Shown piece after piece: positions 1 to 6,110 of a stretch of 47,611 bases of DNA; position 1 is the stretch's first letter, and the number at the start of each line of letters is the position of its first letter. The position numbers and the translations under genes are program-made. Source of the DNA: Actinomycetota bacterium (lineage in GTDB: Bacteria; Actinomycetota; Actinomycetes; Propionibacteriales; Propionibacteriaceae); assembly GCA_020161015.1 (NCBI GenBank), contig JAIUOT010000021.1, positions 1-47,611 of the forward strand. The letters run 5' to 3'. The notes beneath the pieces are model-generated. The model saw only the letters and a list, made by a program, of their open reading frames with translations. It searched no databases and was not told where the DNA came from.

Positions 1-2777
<2,777 letters not shown>

Positions 2778-3359
2778 GGTGGAGTCCTTCCGCAAGTCCC
2801 GGCGTTGAACCGGTTTCTTTGCACGCAGAACGGCCCGCGTCAAGTTCACGGGTCGTCGATGGCAATGGGCAAAGCGATAGCTTACCTTGCCCGGCGGGGC
2901 CTCGCAAACCGGCGTCCTTGCCGGCCGACCTGGCCGCCCTGGCGGTACCCGTGCGGCCACGACGGACGCTACCGCGATCCCGGCCCGTCCGCCAGACGAC
3001 ACCGGACACCGCGCCCTCCCCCGCGGGCCGGCGCCCGGCGGCGAGGGCAAGGGCGGGCCGCGGGGAACTGCGCTTCGCGTGCCAGGAGGGCGCCGGGTCG
3101 CGGCCGGGGCGAGGGGGAGATCGAATCAATGCCCGCACTCATCAATGCCGGCACGCCGGCGGTGCAACGAATCGGGGCGGAAGTCCCGGACACACGCCTC
3201 CGAAAGCGAAAGGGGTCCAGGGACGCCACAAGGCCGGTGTCTGCGGCAGGCACGGGAGGGGTATCCATACGCTGCAGAACACCGGCCCAAGTGGTGTACT
3301 CATCCGACGCATTGGGGGGGCGCCGACAAGTAGATTCCATCAGACTTGACTGGGGCCTG
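2778..3359. other. 582-bp gap upstream of rpoB, no supported gene
   Basis: I see no convincing gene on either strand; open frames here have Arg/Pro-rich noncoding composition and lack ribosome-binding sites. The stretch holds the putative rpoB promoter near 2879-2907, an 8-bp inverted repeat CCCCGCGG/CCGCGGGG (3019-3026 with 3058-3065), and at its right end the TTGAC/GTCAA cluster described separately. A promoter there could give rpoB a second, long-leader transcript. Confidence 0.6.
2879..2907 (-). promoter_or_regulatory. Putative rpoB promoter
   Basis: On the minus strand TTGCGA (2907-2902) and TAAGCT (2884-2879) are separated by 17 bases. This would start transcription near 2872 and give a leader of about 95 bases before the rpoB TTG. 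The assignment rests on hexamer match and spacing only. Confidence 0.4.
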
Positions 3360-3375
3360 TCAAGTCGTTGTCAAA
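3345..3375. promoter_or_regulatory. WGTCAA-box cluster at the 3' end of the regulator gene
   Basis: Three boxes lie within 31 bp: CTTGACT (3345-3351), TGTCAAG (3358-3364) and TGTCAAA (3369-3375). The first two form the inverted repeat CTTGAC-N8-GTCAAG, which overlaps the regulator stop codon. Read on the minus strand, TTGACA (3363-3358) is followed after 18 bases by TGGAAT, a possible promoter pointing toward rpoB. The same box recurs upstream of the regulator, so this may be a second binding region for it (inference). Confidence 0.45.
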
Positions 3376-4625
3376 GAATCTTTCGGGACTTCTTGCCTGG
3401 CCGCCTTCCGCCACGCGTCGACGGCCGCCCGGAGGCGTCCTTCCGACTCGTACTCGCGGGCAGCGAGCTCGAACCGCTCCCTCGCCGCGGCCGTCCGGCC
3501 CATCGCCTGGAACGCCTCGGCGAGGATCTCCTCCGAGCTTCCCCGCGAGATGTCCGCGGCGCCCAGGACGGGGTCGTCCAGGACATCGGAGATGATGCGG
3601 GCCGCTTCGACGGCATCACCGTCCAGCAGGGCCAGCTTGGCCTCCACCTGCCTCAGCTCGACCACGTCGTGGCTGTTGCCGAGAATCTCCAGGCCGAGCG
3701 AGGCTGTCCGCACCAGGTCCCTCACGCCGTCCTCGATACCCGCGTCCAGCAGGCATCGGGCGGCGGAGCGGTGGAAACGGAGCCACAACCGGAGGTCTCG
3801 CCGGGCGTCCAGCTGCCCTTTCGCGCGGGCGTGGTGCTCACGCCCGACCTCCACCTTGCCCGCCATGAAGGCGGCCGTTCCGATCGTCCAGGCGATCATC
3901 CCCCGGGAGTGCTCGGAGTTCAGCCGGGGTGACAGTTCGGCGAGGCGCAGCAGGTAAGGATCGCTCTCCTCTGCCGAGTGCCCCGCCTCAAACATCGCGC
4001 TGACAAGGGCCATCAGTGCTTCGGCGAGGATGATCGGCGGCGCGGCGGACGCCGCTTCGACCGCCCGGGCACCCAACGCGACCGCCCAGCCGAGGTGGTC
4101 CGACGCGCGATTCGCGACCGAGGCGAGGCTCAACGCCTGCGCCCGGGCCACGCCGAACTTCCTGGCCGTCTCGTGCTCCGCCAGCTCCTCGGCCAGCCGC
4201 GCAGCACCCACGAAGTCACCGGAGGAGAACCGGGCCTGGGCCTGCACGTACAGGGCCTCCCAGTGGCGCCCGGTGTCGCCGGCCGCCAGCGCGATCGCCG
4301 CGGCCTGCGCGGAGTGCTGGATCGCGGCGGCCCAGTCGTGCTCCGACCAGGCCCGCTCCGCGACCAGCAGGTCCTCGATCGAGTCCGACGAGACGAGCCC
4401 GCCCGGGTCCCCCTGCGGGGACACGCCCCACTCCAGCGGCGACACACCCAGCCGGCGGGAGAGGAACTCGATCACCTCGGGTGTCGCGACCCTCCGGCCG
4501 CTCTCCAGGTGGGAGATGTAGCTACCGGAGTACTTGTCACCGCCCAGCTCCGCCTGCGACAGCCCCTGCCGACGACGGGCATCCCGCAACAGCGAGCCGA
4601 ACTGCACCGCGCTCGACGCGTCCAC
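3360..4625 (-). CDS. XRE-family transcriptional regulator with C-terminal TPR region (RRNPP-like)
   Basis: Predicted 421-residue cytoplasmic DNA-binding protein. An XRE helix-turn-helix spans about residues 9-61 (SQAELGG..SGSYISHLESGRR), with SGSYISHLESGRR as the likely recognition helix. Residues ~75-415 are Ala/Leu/Glu-rich helical pairs typical of tetratricopeptide repeats. HTH plus a long TPR domain is the layout of Rgg/PlcR/NprR/PrgX regulators, which bind small exported-then-imported peptides. I chose GTG 4625 because AGGAGG (4635-4630) sits four bases upstream; an upstream TTG at 4640 would include the Shine-Dalgarno itself. A divergent secreted-peptide gene starts 111 bp away and repeated WGTCAA boxes flank this gene. 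It could instead be a ligand-free or metabolite-sensing XRE-TPR regulator. Confidence 0.9.
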   Translation of the reverse strand: MDASSAVQFGSLLRDARRRQGLSQAELGGDKYSGSYISHLESGRRVATPEVIEFLSRRLGVSPLEWGVSPQGDPGGLVSSDSIEDLLVAERAWSEHDWAAAIQHSAQAAAIALAAGDTGRHWEALYVQAQARFSSGDFVGAARLAEELAEHETARKFGVARAQALSLASVANRASDHLGWAVALGARAVEAASAAPPIILAEALMALVSAMFEAGHSAEESDPYLLRLAELSPRLNSEHSRGMIAWTIGTAAFMAGKVEVGREHHARAKGQLDARRDLRLWLRFHRSAARCLLDAGIEDGVRDLVRTASLGLEILGNSHDVVELRQVEAKLALLDGDAVEAARIISDVLDDPVLGAADISRGSSEEILAEAFQAMGRTAAARERFELAAREYESEGRLRAAVDAWRKAARQEVPKDSLTTT

Positions 4626-4653
4626 ACGACCTCCTGACAATGGTCCTCAGAAA

Positions 4654-4682
4654 ACTCTGTCAAATGTTGACAACCCAGTCAA
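4654..4682 (-). promoter_or_regulatory. Putative regulator promoter
   Basis: On the minus strand TTGACT (4682-4677) and CAGAGT (4659-4654) are 17 bases apart, giving a start near 4647 and a ~20-base leader containing the AGGAGG site. The TTGACA palindrome at 4658-4672 lies between and over these elements, so a bound protein would be expected to affect this promoter too (autoregulation, inferred). Confidence 0.4.
4658..4672. promoter_or_regulatory. Perfect palindromic operator candidate
   Basis: TGTCAA-ATG-TTGACA is a perfect 6-3-6 inverted repeat. Its right arm is also a consensus -35 hexamer for the peptide gene. Further CCAGTCAA copies lie at 4675-4682 and 4709-4716. It is the likely binding site of the adjacent XRE-TPR regulator (inference from position and symmetry). 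Confidence 0.6.
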
Positions 4683-4696
4683 GTGCCGGGTACCTT
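4667..4696 (+). promoter_or_regulatory. Putative peptide-gene promoter
   Basis: A perfect TTGACA (4667-4672) is followed after 18 bases by TACCTT (4691-4696). Transcription would start near 4703, leaving a leader of about 34 bases that contains AAGGAAGG (4719-4726) before the ATG at 4737. One WGTCAA copy (4711-4716) would lie within the leader. Confidence 0.5.
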
Positions 4697-4736
4697 CTTG
4701 TCATTGAGCCAGTCAAACAAGGAAGGCTTTGGGGAC

Positions 4737-4883
4737 ATGACCATCGTTCGTAGGATTATCGCCGCCGCCGCGGTTGCCGGTACCCTCGCCGTGCTGCCGA
4801 TCAGCGTGATCGCTACCAACAGCCAGCACGCCGGTGGCGTCGTCACCATCAACGGTCAGGGCAACTGGCCGCTCAAGAAGTGA
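4737..4883 (+). CDS. Small signal-peptide-bearing peptide, candidate pheromone precursor
   Basis: A 48-residue peptide. It has a basic N-terminus (R5, R6), a hydrophobic core at about residues 7-25 rich in Ala/Val/Ile, and a possible signal-peptidase site after A26 (SVIA) or later. The exported tail would end in GGVVTINGQGNWPLKK. I chose ATG 4737 because AAGGAAGG lies ten bases upstream and a TTGACA promoter precedes it; an in-frame extension upstream would run through the promoter. It is divergent from an XRE-TPR regulator and is followed by an 18-bp-stem terminator, so it appears to be a monocistronic short mRNA. No RiPP-modifying enzyme, transporter or immunity gene is adjacent. I do not recognise the family; a signalling role is inferred from context. 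A small secreted antimicrobial is the alternative. Confidence 0.75.
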   Translation: MTIVRRIIAAAAVAGTLAVLPISVIATNSQHAGGVVTINGQGNWPLKK

Positions 4884-4963
4884 CCCTCCGGACCACTCGG
4901 ACCTCCGGCCGGCACACCGGCCACATTCCCCCACAAATGCGTTAAATCCACCCCCAGTAGAGT

Positions 4964-5011
4964 CAGAACGGCGGTGCCTGCGAATAGCAGGCCACCGCCG
5001 TTCTGCTTTTT
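4964..5011 (+). terminator. Strong intrinsic terminator of the peptide gene
   Basis: The arms CAGAACGGCGGTGCCTGC and GCAGGCcACCGCCGTTCTG form an 18-bp stem with one bulge and a five-base loop (4964-5005). CTTTTT follows at 5006-5011. The T-run is on the plus strand only, so it serves the peptide transcript. Confidence 0.9.
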
Positions 5012-5054
5012 CGTACCCGCGTTCCCGTTTTTCGGCGCACTCGCCCAATTGCGA

Positions 5055-5088
5055 AAGTGGTGGCGGGCCCGAGGGCCCACCACCACTT
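5055..5088 (-). terminator. Terminator after rplL
   Basis: A near-perfect hairpin pairs AAGTGGTGG-x-GGGCCC with GGGCCC-x-CCACCACTT around a two-base loop. It begins 21 bases past the rplL stop. Only a short T-run follows on the minus strand, as is common in high-GC actinobacteria. Confidence 0.75.
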
Positions 5089-5109
5089 GCTGCGTTACCG
5101 GTCAGACGG

Positions 5110-5502
5110 TCACTTGACGGAGACCGCGGCGCCGGCGGCCTCGAGGGCCTCCTTGGCCTTGGCGGCCGCGTCGCGCGTGACCTTCTCGAGCACGACCTTG
5201 GGAGCGGCCTCGACCAGGTCCTTGGCCTCCTTCAGGCCGAGGTTGGTGAGCGCGCGCACCTCCTTGATGACCTGGATCTTCTTGTCGCCGGCGGACTCGA
5301 GGATCACGTCGACCTCGTTGCTGACCTCTTCCTCCTCGGCAGCGGCGTCGCCACCGGCGGCGGCCGGGGCAGCGGCCACGGCGACCGGGGCGGCAGCGGT
5401 GACACCGAAGGTGTCCTCGAACAGCTTCACGAACTCGGAGAGCTCGATCAGGGTCATCTCCTTGAAGGCGTCAAGGAGCTCGTCAGTAGTGAGCTTCGCC
5501 AT
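5110..5502 (-). CDS. rplL: 50S ribosomal protein L7/L12
   Basis: Stalk protein of the large ribosomal subunit that recruits translational GTPases; 130 residues, normal for the family. The N-terminal dimerisation/L10-binding segment ([20 protein letters not shown]) is followed by an Ala-rich flexible hinge at about 36-58. The C-terminal globular domain ([20 protein letters not shown], then [11 protein letters not shown]) completes it. It lies 20 bases downstream of rplJ and is presumably co-transcribed with it. A hairpin terminator follows. Confidence 0.98.
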
Positions 5503-5522
5503 GTTGGGCGTCCTTTCTCTTC

Positions 5523-6110
5523 TTACTCGGATGCAGCGTCAGCCGCGTCGGTGGTGGCCTCAGCAGCGGGTGCTGCATCGGGTGCCGGGGTCTCCCCGGC
5601 CTGCTTCTGGGTCCTGAGGGCGTCCAGGGCGCGAGCGGCCTGGGACAGCGGCGCGGCGAACAGACCGACGGCCTTGGCCAGGTTCCCGTTCATCGCACCG
5701 GCGAGCTTGGCGAGGAGGACCTCGCGAGACTCGAGATCGGCCAGCTTCTTGACCGACTCGGCGTCCAGGACACGACCGTCCATGACGCCACCCTTGATCA
5801 CCAGATGCGGGTTCGCCTTGGCGAAGTCGCGCAGACCCTTCGCAACGGTGGCAACGTCACCGCGGATGAAGGTGATCGCGGTCGGGCCGGCGAGCTGGTC
5901 GTCCAGGCCCTCGATGCCCGCTTCACGGGCCGCGATCATGGTCAGCGTGTTCTTCGTCACGGCGTAGCTGGCGTCCACACCCAGGGACCGGCGCAGTGCC
6001 TTCAGGTCCTTGACGGTGAGTCCGCGGTACTCGGTCAGCACGGCTGCCGCGGAGGTGCTGAACTGCTCGGTCAGCTCCGCGACGGCGGCTGCCTTGTCCG
6101 GCTTCGCCAT
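5523..6110 (-). CDS. rplJ: 50S ribosomal protein L10
   Basis: Stalk base protein that binds 23S rRNA and carries the L7/L12 dimers; 195 residues. [17 protein letters not shown] and [17 protein letters not shown] are typical L10 N-terminal features, and the C-terminal Ala-rich helix is the L7/L12-binding region. I chose ATG 6110 because GGAAGGAG lies four bases upstream; the frame stays open further upstream but crosses the leader RNA. The 166-base leader probably mediates L10-L12 autoregulation. Confidence 0.97.

Follow-up and report, generated by a model that had tools for sequence, protein, structure and literature searches.

The closest described relatives of the locus reported here are the RRNPP or RRNPPA regulators (Rgg, Rap, NprR, PlcR, PrgX, and AimR), which have in common an N-terminal HTH, a C-terminal TPR superhelix, and a neighboring gene that encodes a small exported peptide (PMC9765709, PMC10075063); Rap does not have the HTH. 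In the Bacillales systems the peptide gene lies directly downstream of the receptor, according to PMC9765709. Tandemly duplicated Phr propeptides have multiple pheromone copies in each secreted precursor, with conservation mostly in the repeats (PMC11343458). These systems are from Bacillota. Signals of Actinomycetota are typically small molecules made by enzymes, as stated in PMC10075063.

The window, a stretch of 47,611 nucleotides, is from a Propionicimonas-like genome and includes a regulator gene with a divergent 48-codon signal-peptide ORF (Table 1). A sequence-only reading had proposed that the two form a peptide-sensing pair. The observation at 3345-5011 is real, and it exceeds chance since 29 of 30 loci of the regulator family have the ORF in the corresponding position and pN is below pS in 105 of 105 pairs of orthologues; the co-conserved ORF and the coding selection support the proposed pair, in which the peptide would bind the regulator. 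The account was incomplete, however, as a second operator and an RNA behind the regulator were missed. With these included, the locus is probably a self-contained RRNPP-like quorum-sensing module, the direct targets of which would be its own signal and a small RNA complementary to Shine-Dalgarno sequences. The secreted peptide, the receptor-like DNA-binding protein, and the small RNA share an evolutionary link here, which suggests that actinobacteria, too, have a style of peptide-based cell-to-cell signaling that has so far been described from a different bacterial phylum. No description of a peptide-regulator-sRNA module was found in open-access papers.

Table 1. Features of the locus in the window, and tandem repeats in precursors of related loci
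Feature	Position or locus	Strand	Basis or remark
rpoB	3..2777	-	flanking gene given for context; truncated at window end; start codon assigned by reading
Structured small RNA	3224..3330	-	model R1 match; two hairpins and linker
sRNA hairpin 2, loop ACCCCUCCCG	about 3232-3287; loop 3253-3262	-	model R1
sRNA hairpin 1, C7 loop	about 3314-3320 (loop)	-	model R1
Operator copy 2 (putative), TTGACA-N7-GTCAA	3346..3363	-	presumed sRNA promoter region; overlaps regulator stop codon
XRE-HTH and TPR-superhelix regulator	3360..4625	-	ORF, Pfam domains, AlphaFold2 model; 421 aa from GTG 4625
Palindrome TGTCAA-N3-TTGACA	4658..4672	.	third half-site on regulator side
Operator copy 1 (putative), TTGACA-N5-GTCAA	4667..4682	+	overlaps -35 of presumed peptide promoter
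-10-like TACCTT of presumed peptide promoter	4691-4696	+	assigned by reading
Shine-Dalgarno-like AAGGAAGG of micropeptide	4719..4726	+	by sequence
Secreted micropeptide precursor, 48 aa	4737..4883	+	ATG 4737, stop 4883; signal-like N-terminus by hydrophobicity
Intrinsic terminator of micropeptide transcript	4964..5011	+	fold, then CTTTTT
rplL (ribosomal protein L7/L12)	5110..5502	-	flanking gene, context only
AGGGIWPK x5	L021		tandem repeat in precursor
GEGIWY x3	L018		tandem repeat in precursor
AGGGIWYK x3	L030		tandem repeat in precursor
AGEGNWPS x3 plus one variant	L060		tandem repeat in precursor
ADRGIWY x3	L063		tandem repeat in precursor
IGNWPDPM x3	L065		tandem repeat in precursor
DIxWP x2-3	L073, L074, L077		tandem repeat in precursor

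The regulator resembles the RRNPP receptors in its N-terminal XRE-type HTH and, by predicted structure, in its C-terminal TPR superhelix with a putative concave peptide pocket. The mechanical ORF call (TTG 4640..3360, 426 aa) begins upstream of an in-frame GTG at 4625 that is preceded by AGGAGG (4635-4630), and the GTG is the likelier start, which gives the 421 residues of the earlier reading. HTH_31 and HTH_3 exceed the Pfam cut-off in the window's regulator, in which TPR is below threshold; among the 23 members scanned, the window's included, all match an HTH, seven match TPR_12, seven match TPR_2, and nothing beyond generic families (HTH, TPR-type, or other repeats) is matched. The AlphaFold2 model (pLDDT 89.1) has the HTH followed by a long helical-repeat superhelix. 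Its Foldseek matches include Rap of pLS20 with Phr*, RapJ-CSF, and PlcR-PapR7-DNA, but these rank behind TPR superhelices in general, such as MalT and LGN, so the fold does not point specifically to peptide receptors of the RRNPP kind. Outside the HTH, no homology to known RRNPP families was found in Pfam, NCBIfam, PHROGs, or PDB chains: the chains of ComR, PlcR, and 4yv9 (an Rgg, per PMC9765709) align within the HTH stretch only, and NCBIfam and PHROGs gave HTH-level matches plus one weak PHROG of unassigned function at residues 288-388. Unlike the RRNPP receptors, this one matches generic HTH and TPR families only.

The micropeptide gene is an adjacent short propeptide gene as in RRNPP systems, with export judged from its sequence and signal peptides assigned from hydrophobicity only. 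Its position differs from that in the Bacillales systems, since the present loci have it divergent upstream or convergent downstream. The ORF is as the earlier reading described it, with a signal-peptide-like N-terminus and the ending NGQGNWPLKK. It is intact in 29 of the 30 family loci, with a conserved C-terminal core, and the 30th copy is split over two frames; L012 has the micropeptide. A motif rule, drawn up after data inspection, finds the peptide in 67 of 86 regulator loci and in none of 25 control XRE (other HTH_31) loci from the same genomes; the non-family loci among the 86 were taken by best score and not at random. Reading beyond the rule adds five loci, one being the frame-broken copy, and the peptide is absent from 14 of the 86 by rule and reading together. 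The 48-codon frame is under coding selection: among 15 close orthologues the mean pN/pS is 0.60, although the 105 pairs are not independent, and some pairs have weak constraint (dN/dS up to 0.83, L001 and L034).

The conserved part of the micropeptide is a short Trp-containing core, GQGNWP in the window's genus, behind a variable linker. In some relatives this motif is repeated two to five times within a single precursor (Table 1), as would be predicted for the unit that processing releases. This is like the tandem Phr propeptides in having several repeated units per secreted precursor; the Rap-Phr systems are from Bacillota, while here actinobacterial precursors have up to five near-identical units. 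The suggestion of a processed C-terminal peptide thus gains from the repeats, but the conserved part is the inner GQGNWP and not the last residues.

The palindrome in the shared promoter is present as first noted, but the extra half-site is limited to the window's genus and L017 (L001-L011, L017), and it was set aside as the operator in favor of an overlapping element conserved across the family, TTGACA-N5-7-GTCAA, which overlaps the -35 of the presumed peptide promoter. By pattern, 25 of the 30 family loci have this element next to the peptide and 21 have it on the far side, before the RNA; it is missing in five (L018, L021, L024, L026, and L030). A simple consensus scan of 3000-5500 returned no sigma-70-type promoters and no terminators, so promoter positions rest on conservation and reading. 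The scan also missed the terminator at 4964-5011, which nevertheless is as strong and private as had been claimed (perfect 13-bp outer arms, -39.5 kcal/mol, z -8.1, a stability equalled by none of 200 shuffles). A search for a wider regulon through the operator found none in 25 genomes, picked because their loci have the operator, with the five operator-less loci left out: 44 of 59 distinct places are this locus, and the remaining 15 give 17 strand matches, below the 40 for a reversed control pattern.

The second operator copy precedes a predicted RNA of two hairpins with C-rich loops. Compensatory changes are present in 12 of 21 pairs, and 0 of 500 shuffles reach the covariation score. Apart from the loci it was trained on and the genomes of these, model R1 has a convincing copy in Propionicicella only (L017/L050), with no convincing match in L018-L029 or in the class-level loci searched. 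No Rfam family matches the sRNA region at gathering level. Six chance-level matches were returned for 2700-5600 of the window (E 2.2-7.3) and four for 12 relatives (E 0.07-0.86, none at gathering level); one of the six, mir-4928 at E 3.5 and well short of gathering, overlaps the sRNA, but on the opposite strand. C-rich hairpins near other loci are scattered, in a raw count without background control. Among described RNAs, 6C RNA (Rfam RF01066) is an actinobacterial sRNA of two hairpins with C-rich loops, and the present RNA is like it in these features and in its high-GC host. It differs in being tied to a peptide-regulator pair and an operator, and RF01066 is not among the six matches in the window at E up to 10 or the four in the relatives at E up to 1. 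RNA is also an output of the quorum-sensing circuits of Vibrio (Qrr) and Staphylococcus (RNAIII), both with two-component or phosphorelay input; the likeness is a regulatory RNA as the proposed direct target of a signaling regulator, while the receptor proposed here is one-component and cytoplasmic.

The window's genome has 25 copies of CGGGAGGGGT, the complement of the hairpin 2 loop, among them the RNA locus itself; the reversed control has 10. Seven of the other 24 sites sit 0-13 nt ahead of some open frame, and about three of these look by reading like real gene starts. A permease, one candidate target, has a close homologue in 4 of 13 relatives. A secreted CAP-domain protein, the leading candidate target in the window's genus, has CGGGAGGGGTCCTACA at the ribosome-binding site, kept in two close orthologues, G142 and G146 (52% and 50% identical), the former found through the protein and not the pattern; the site may be kept for other reasons, since another upstream block is likewise conserved, and GGGAGGGG is absent from the starts of 11 more distant matches. 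Duplexes of the loops with the candidate sites come out at -28 to -31 kcal/mol, a level reached by 0-2 of 500 shuffled targets; the test is partly circular because two of the three sites were selected by pattern. The ribosome-binding sites of the peptide and the regulator have nothing special against the sRNA loops (117 and 364 of 500 shuffles as low).

In the proposed mechanism, the signal sequence would export the micropeptide and cleavage would free a short peptide around GQGNWP, which would build up outside the cells and be re-imported by an oligopeptide permease; a response to density is likewise presumed. Five SBP_bac_5 proteins in the window's genome are candidates for the importer. The imported peptide may dock on the concave face of the TPR superhelix. 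We infer that the regulator occupies TTGACA-N5-7-GTCAA, over the -35 and part of the spacer, at two promoters, one driving the peptide (feedback) and the other the small RNA; most likely it would repress both while peptide is absent and let go once peptide is present. The sRNA loops CCCCUCCC and CCCCCC could then pair with G-rich ribosome-binding sites and alter translation of the targets. Peptides with a Trp-Pro or Cys-Cys signature set the module apart from RRNPP systems, as would a presumed direct output that includes a C-rich sRNA.

The micropeptide could instead be an effector, such as a small bacteriocin or membrane-active peptide, with the regulator answering another ligand and the likeness to a pheromone coincidental. 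A short peptide with a cationic N-terminus and a hydrophobic segment also suits a membrane peptide, and Rgg-like regulators govern bacteriocins as well. We consider this improbable, as the conserved part is a short motif after a variable linker, tandem-repeated in several precursors, and rplL and/or rpoB are in the flanks of 27 of the 30 family loci, which leaves little space for immunity or export genes. Peptide class also follows the regulator tree, with 17 changes where shuffling gives 53.9 on average and none of 200 shuffles goes as low, although shared descent alone could also give this result. That coupling and the close pairing speak as well against an autoregulator controlled otherwise, with a micropeptide that acts extracellularly or at the membrane and is not imported into the TPR domain. 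Some precursors do not have an obvious AxA signal-peptidase site, by reading, which would suit such a role; however, the superhelix resembles those that bind Phr and PapR, and the genome has oligopeptide-binding proteins, so we give the idea very little credence.

A further alternative concerns the RNA alone: the structured element could be the leader of the rpoB transcript, the pair tuning RNA polymerase synthesis with no trans-acting sRNA. The element is on the rpoB strand, rplL and rpoB enclose the module in most family loci, and hairpin 2 is not followed by a U-tract, by reading. We regard this as unlikely, if deserving of some weight: conservation fades past hairpin 2, about 450 nt short of rpoB (in the window's genus, by reading), and in 8 of 9 f21 loci examined a hairpin with a C-rich loop, GTCTCGCCCCCCGAACG, is within the 3' UTR of the peptide itself, in a count taken irrespective of nearness to rpoB.

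Named relatives that have the module are Micropruina glycogenica (L049) and Propionicicella superfundia DSM 22317 (L050), both of them culturable. If the quorum-sensing module is as proposed, several Propionibacteriaceae genera would share a conserved linear peptide, encoded by a gene and read by a dedicated receptor in the cytoplasm, and other actinobacterial families would have relatives of it; the signal would be open to immediate synthesis and testing, and one-component peptide sensing would be joined to RNA control in a single locus of less than 2 kb. A broader proposal, which we hold tentatively and rate at somewhat below even, is a class-wide actinobacterial language of secreted Trp-Pro or Cys-Cys peptides and one-component HTH-TPR receptors, in which the ancestral output would be a C-rich RNA masking ribosome-binding sites, with no protein regulon and signaling mainly on translation. 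The neighbors of seven class-level and named loci, compared by reading, have no target gene in common. Regulators of other families have WP or Cys-Cys-ending partner peptides.

On sequence grounds, most loci of the family form a three-part module of predicted secreted peptide, HTH-TPR regulator and structured C-rich RNA, and an operator-like repeat is common to it. A family-level protein search of 147 genomes, the window's own included, gave regulator matches in 36: 29 full-length relatives, one truncated where its contig ends, and six with similarity at the HTH level only. The first 30 of these 36 are loci L001-L030, and all 30 have the divergent micropeptide (29 intact, L016 split over two frames), so that the short ORF expected by the sequence-only reading beside regulator orthologues is co-conserved. 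An automatic rule asking for a short ORF, a Shine-Dalgarno-like sequence, a basic then hydrophobic N-terminus, and either Trp followed by Pro, Tyr or Lys or a terminal Cys-Cys detects 26 of the 30, missing L016, L003 (SYP replaces WP), and L022 and L025 (other residue after Trp). Regulator profile searches (E up to 1e-20) matched 73/394 class and 32/196 order genomes, and loci were taken from the best matches only. Because the rule was fixed after family members had been seen and many loci are close kin, the pairing counts are descriptive: among 86 loci (30 family, 7 named, 29 class-search and 20 order-search loci, omitting the repeats L064 and L094-L101), the rule finds a peptide in 67, of which 51 are divergent upstream, 15 convergent downstream and one same-strand upstream. 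A sixteenth downstream match, in L027, is probably spurious because that locus has an upstream peptide. Reading added L003, L016, L022, L025 and L074, giving 72, and 14 of the 86 have no peptide by rule or reading. At other HTH_31 loci in the same genomes, the rule finds 0/25; an earlier, looser rule found 1/25, that one lacking Trp. In genome G342, two family regulator paralogues share a strand and are separated by about 3 kb; at the one examined (L070), the rule finds no peptide.

In the window, part of a 3.67 Mb draft genome (G000:C4), rplL and rpoB enclose the regulator and the divergent ORF, and the regulator, ORF, palindrome and terminator first noticed there were all recovered. GTG 4625 is the more probable start of the regulator and gives 421 residues. 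The module is flanked by rplL and/or rpoB in 27/30 family loci (exceptions L024, L026 and L027), which is a stable location and an unusual one for a signalling circuit.

Locations of the features discussed and repeat units of tandem precursors
Feature	Location	Strand	Detail
Regulator	window 3360..4625	-
Micropeptide ORF	window 4737..4883	+	48 codons
Operator copy 1	window 4667..4682
Operator copy 2	window 3346..3363
RNA	window 3224..3330	-
rplL/rpoB-flanked module	window 2777-5110
CAP-domain protein gene	G000:C5:34534-35685
Regulator paralogue pair	G342:C3:4575299-4580514
Weak sRNA-model match	G209:C1:1074044-1074143		E about 1e-4
Weak sRNA-model match	G209:C1:1135803-1135893		E about 1e-4
Tandem precursor	L021		AGGGIWPK x5
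Tandem precursor	L018		GEGIWY x3
Tandem precursor	L030		AGGGIWYK x3
Tandem precursor	L060 (Curtobacterium)		AGEGNWPS x3 + fourth, variant copy
Tandem precursor	L063 (Desertihabitans)		ADRGIWY x3
Tandem precursor	L065		IGNWPDPM x3

The substitution pattern marks the micropeptide ORF as coding: pN is below pS in 105/105 (non-independent) pairs of 15 near orthologues, with a mean pN/pS of 0.60, in line with the coding selection that the sequence-only reading had presumed. Among the closest pairs printed, dN/dS is 0.04 in one case (L009 vs L010) and reaches 0.83 in another (L001 vs L034). The conserved core in the window's genus is GQG-[NSG]-[WY]-P, preceded by a linker of variable, in-frame length; the G-x-G-x-W form is not universal, as L028 ends GMWP and L029 ends GPWP. 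Judged from its sequence, the peptide is probably processed, and the tandem precursors suggest that the repeated unit is the released part. Some Phr propeptides likewise carry several pheromone units in tandem (PMC11343458). In f2, another family of the same order, most peptides found are convergent and end WCC. On a tree of 82 regulators, peptide class, assigned by eye, changes 17 times vs a shuffled mean of 53.9 (0/200 shuffles as low), a clustering that shared descent alone would likewise produce. At L119 (G587:C1), a run of three small secreted ORFs, similar to one another and each ending GWCC, lies downstream of the regulator; they are maybe a family of alternative signals.

The structure model of the regulator has HTH helices at residues 8 to 71 and helical hairpins at 87 to 414. 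Its top Foldseek match is MalT domain III, and the 50 matches listed include LGN, Rap of pLS20 with Phr*, RapJ with CSF, and PlcR with PapR7 and DNA (E 1e-5 to 5e-4 for these four); the modelled fold is consistent with a peptide-binding superhelix, w/o proving it. Apart from the HTH, sequence searches with the regulator matched only generic models of TPR-type or other repeats. The module thus resembles RRNPP systems but lacks detectable receptor sequence homology to their families, and for that reason it is not filed as a member; it probably works like one. Open-access PubMed Central titles and abstract beginnings describe no actinobacterial system of this kind. Actinobacterial signals are classed with enzyme-made small molecules (PMC10075063), a review also names cyclic or modified peptides (PMC4748050), and RRNPPA systems are treated in Firmicutes in a main text with no word beginning Actinobact (PMC9765709).

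The repeat TTGACA-N5-7-GTCAA separates regulator and peptide in 25/30 family loci, and in 21/30 another copy immediately follows the regulator; the pattern search finds neither copy in L018, L021, L024, L026 and L030. With N4-7, the window's genome has these two places only, while a reversed control pattern has three elsewhere, and in 25 operator-bearing genomes the locus accounts for 44 of the 59 distinct places that fit the N4-6 form. TTGACA is the consensus -35, and TANNNT-like -10 elements were read 17-18 nt beyond it in the window's genus; a consensus promoter scan reported zero promoters. A regulator dimer on the operator would cover the promoter, and for this reason the regulator is read as a putative repressor that the peptide would release, while the opposite sign, repression dependent on the peptide, may also apply. 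By analogy with RRNPP systems, the regulator is presumed to bind the operator and the peptide, the peptide to be exported, processed and taken up, and the response to have this sign and to depend on density.

Behind operator copy 2 is a conserved element of two hairpins, one with a C-rich loop and the other with CCUCCC. RNAalifold on 20 aligned sequences gave 21 pairs, 12 with compensatory changes; paired cells reach 94.5% vs 82.3% in shuffles, the covariation score is 0.489 (reached by 0/500 shuffles) vs 0.246, and slid registers lower the paired fraction to 29-44%. Rfam scans of window 2700-5600 and of 12 relatives give zero families at gathering score. With the covariance model, a single strong copy turns up in 16/30 searched genomes of the genus, two of which also show a weak antisense match overlapping it; in three genomes from other families of the order, the matches are weak (E 1e-4 to 4e-3). 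Among genus genomes covered by both protein and RNA searches, regulator and RNA are both present in 11/16 and both absent in 5/16, and the joint absence is the informative part because all 11 had fed the model. An independent match is that in Propionicicella (L017/L050; E 4.6e-6). G209, with two weak matches, has no regulator at the profile cut-off (E up to 1e-20). Differently shaped C-rich elements lie behind the regulator in L029 and five loci of genome group g7. In genome group f21, a hairpin with loop GTCTCGCCCCCCGAACG is in the peptide's 3' UTR in 8/9 loci examined, and was not found at L090. An almost invariant C-rich-loop hairpin follows Cys-Cys-ending peptide genes in f21 (L078, L080, L083-L085, L087, L076 and L092), and in L076 and L092 it sits within a 19-20-bp stem.

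Judging from its loops, the RNA would mask ribosome-binding sites. A secreted CAP-domain protein is no more than a suggestive candidate target: its site CGGGAGGGGTCCTACA is kept in two orthologues, and a second conserved block lies upstream of the gene.
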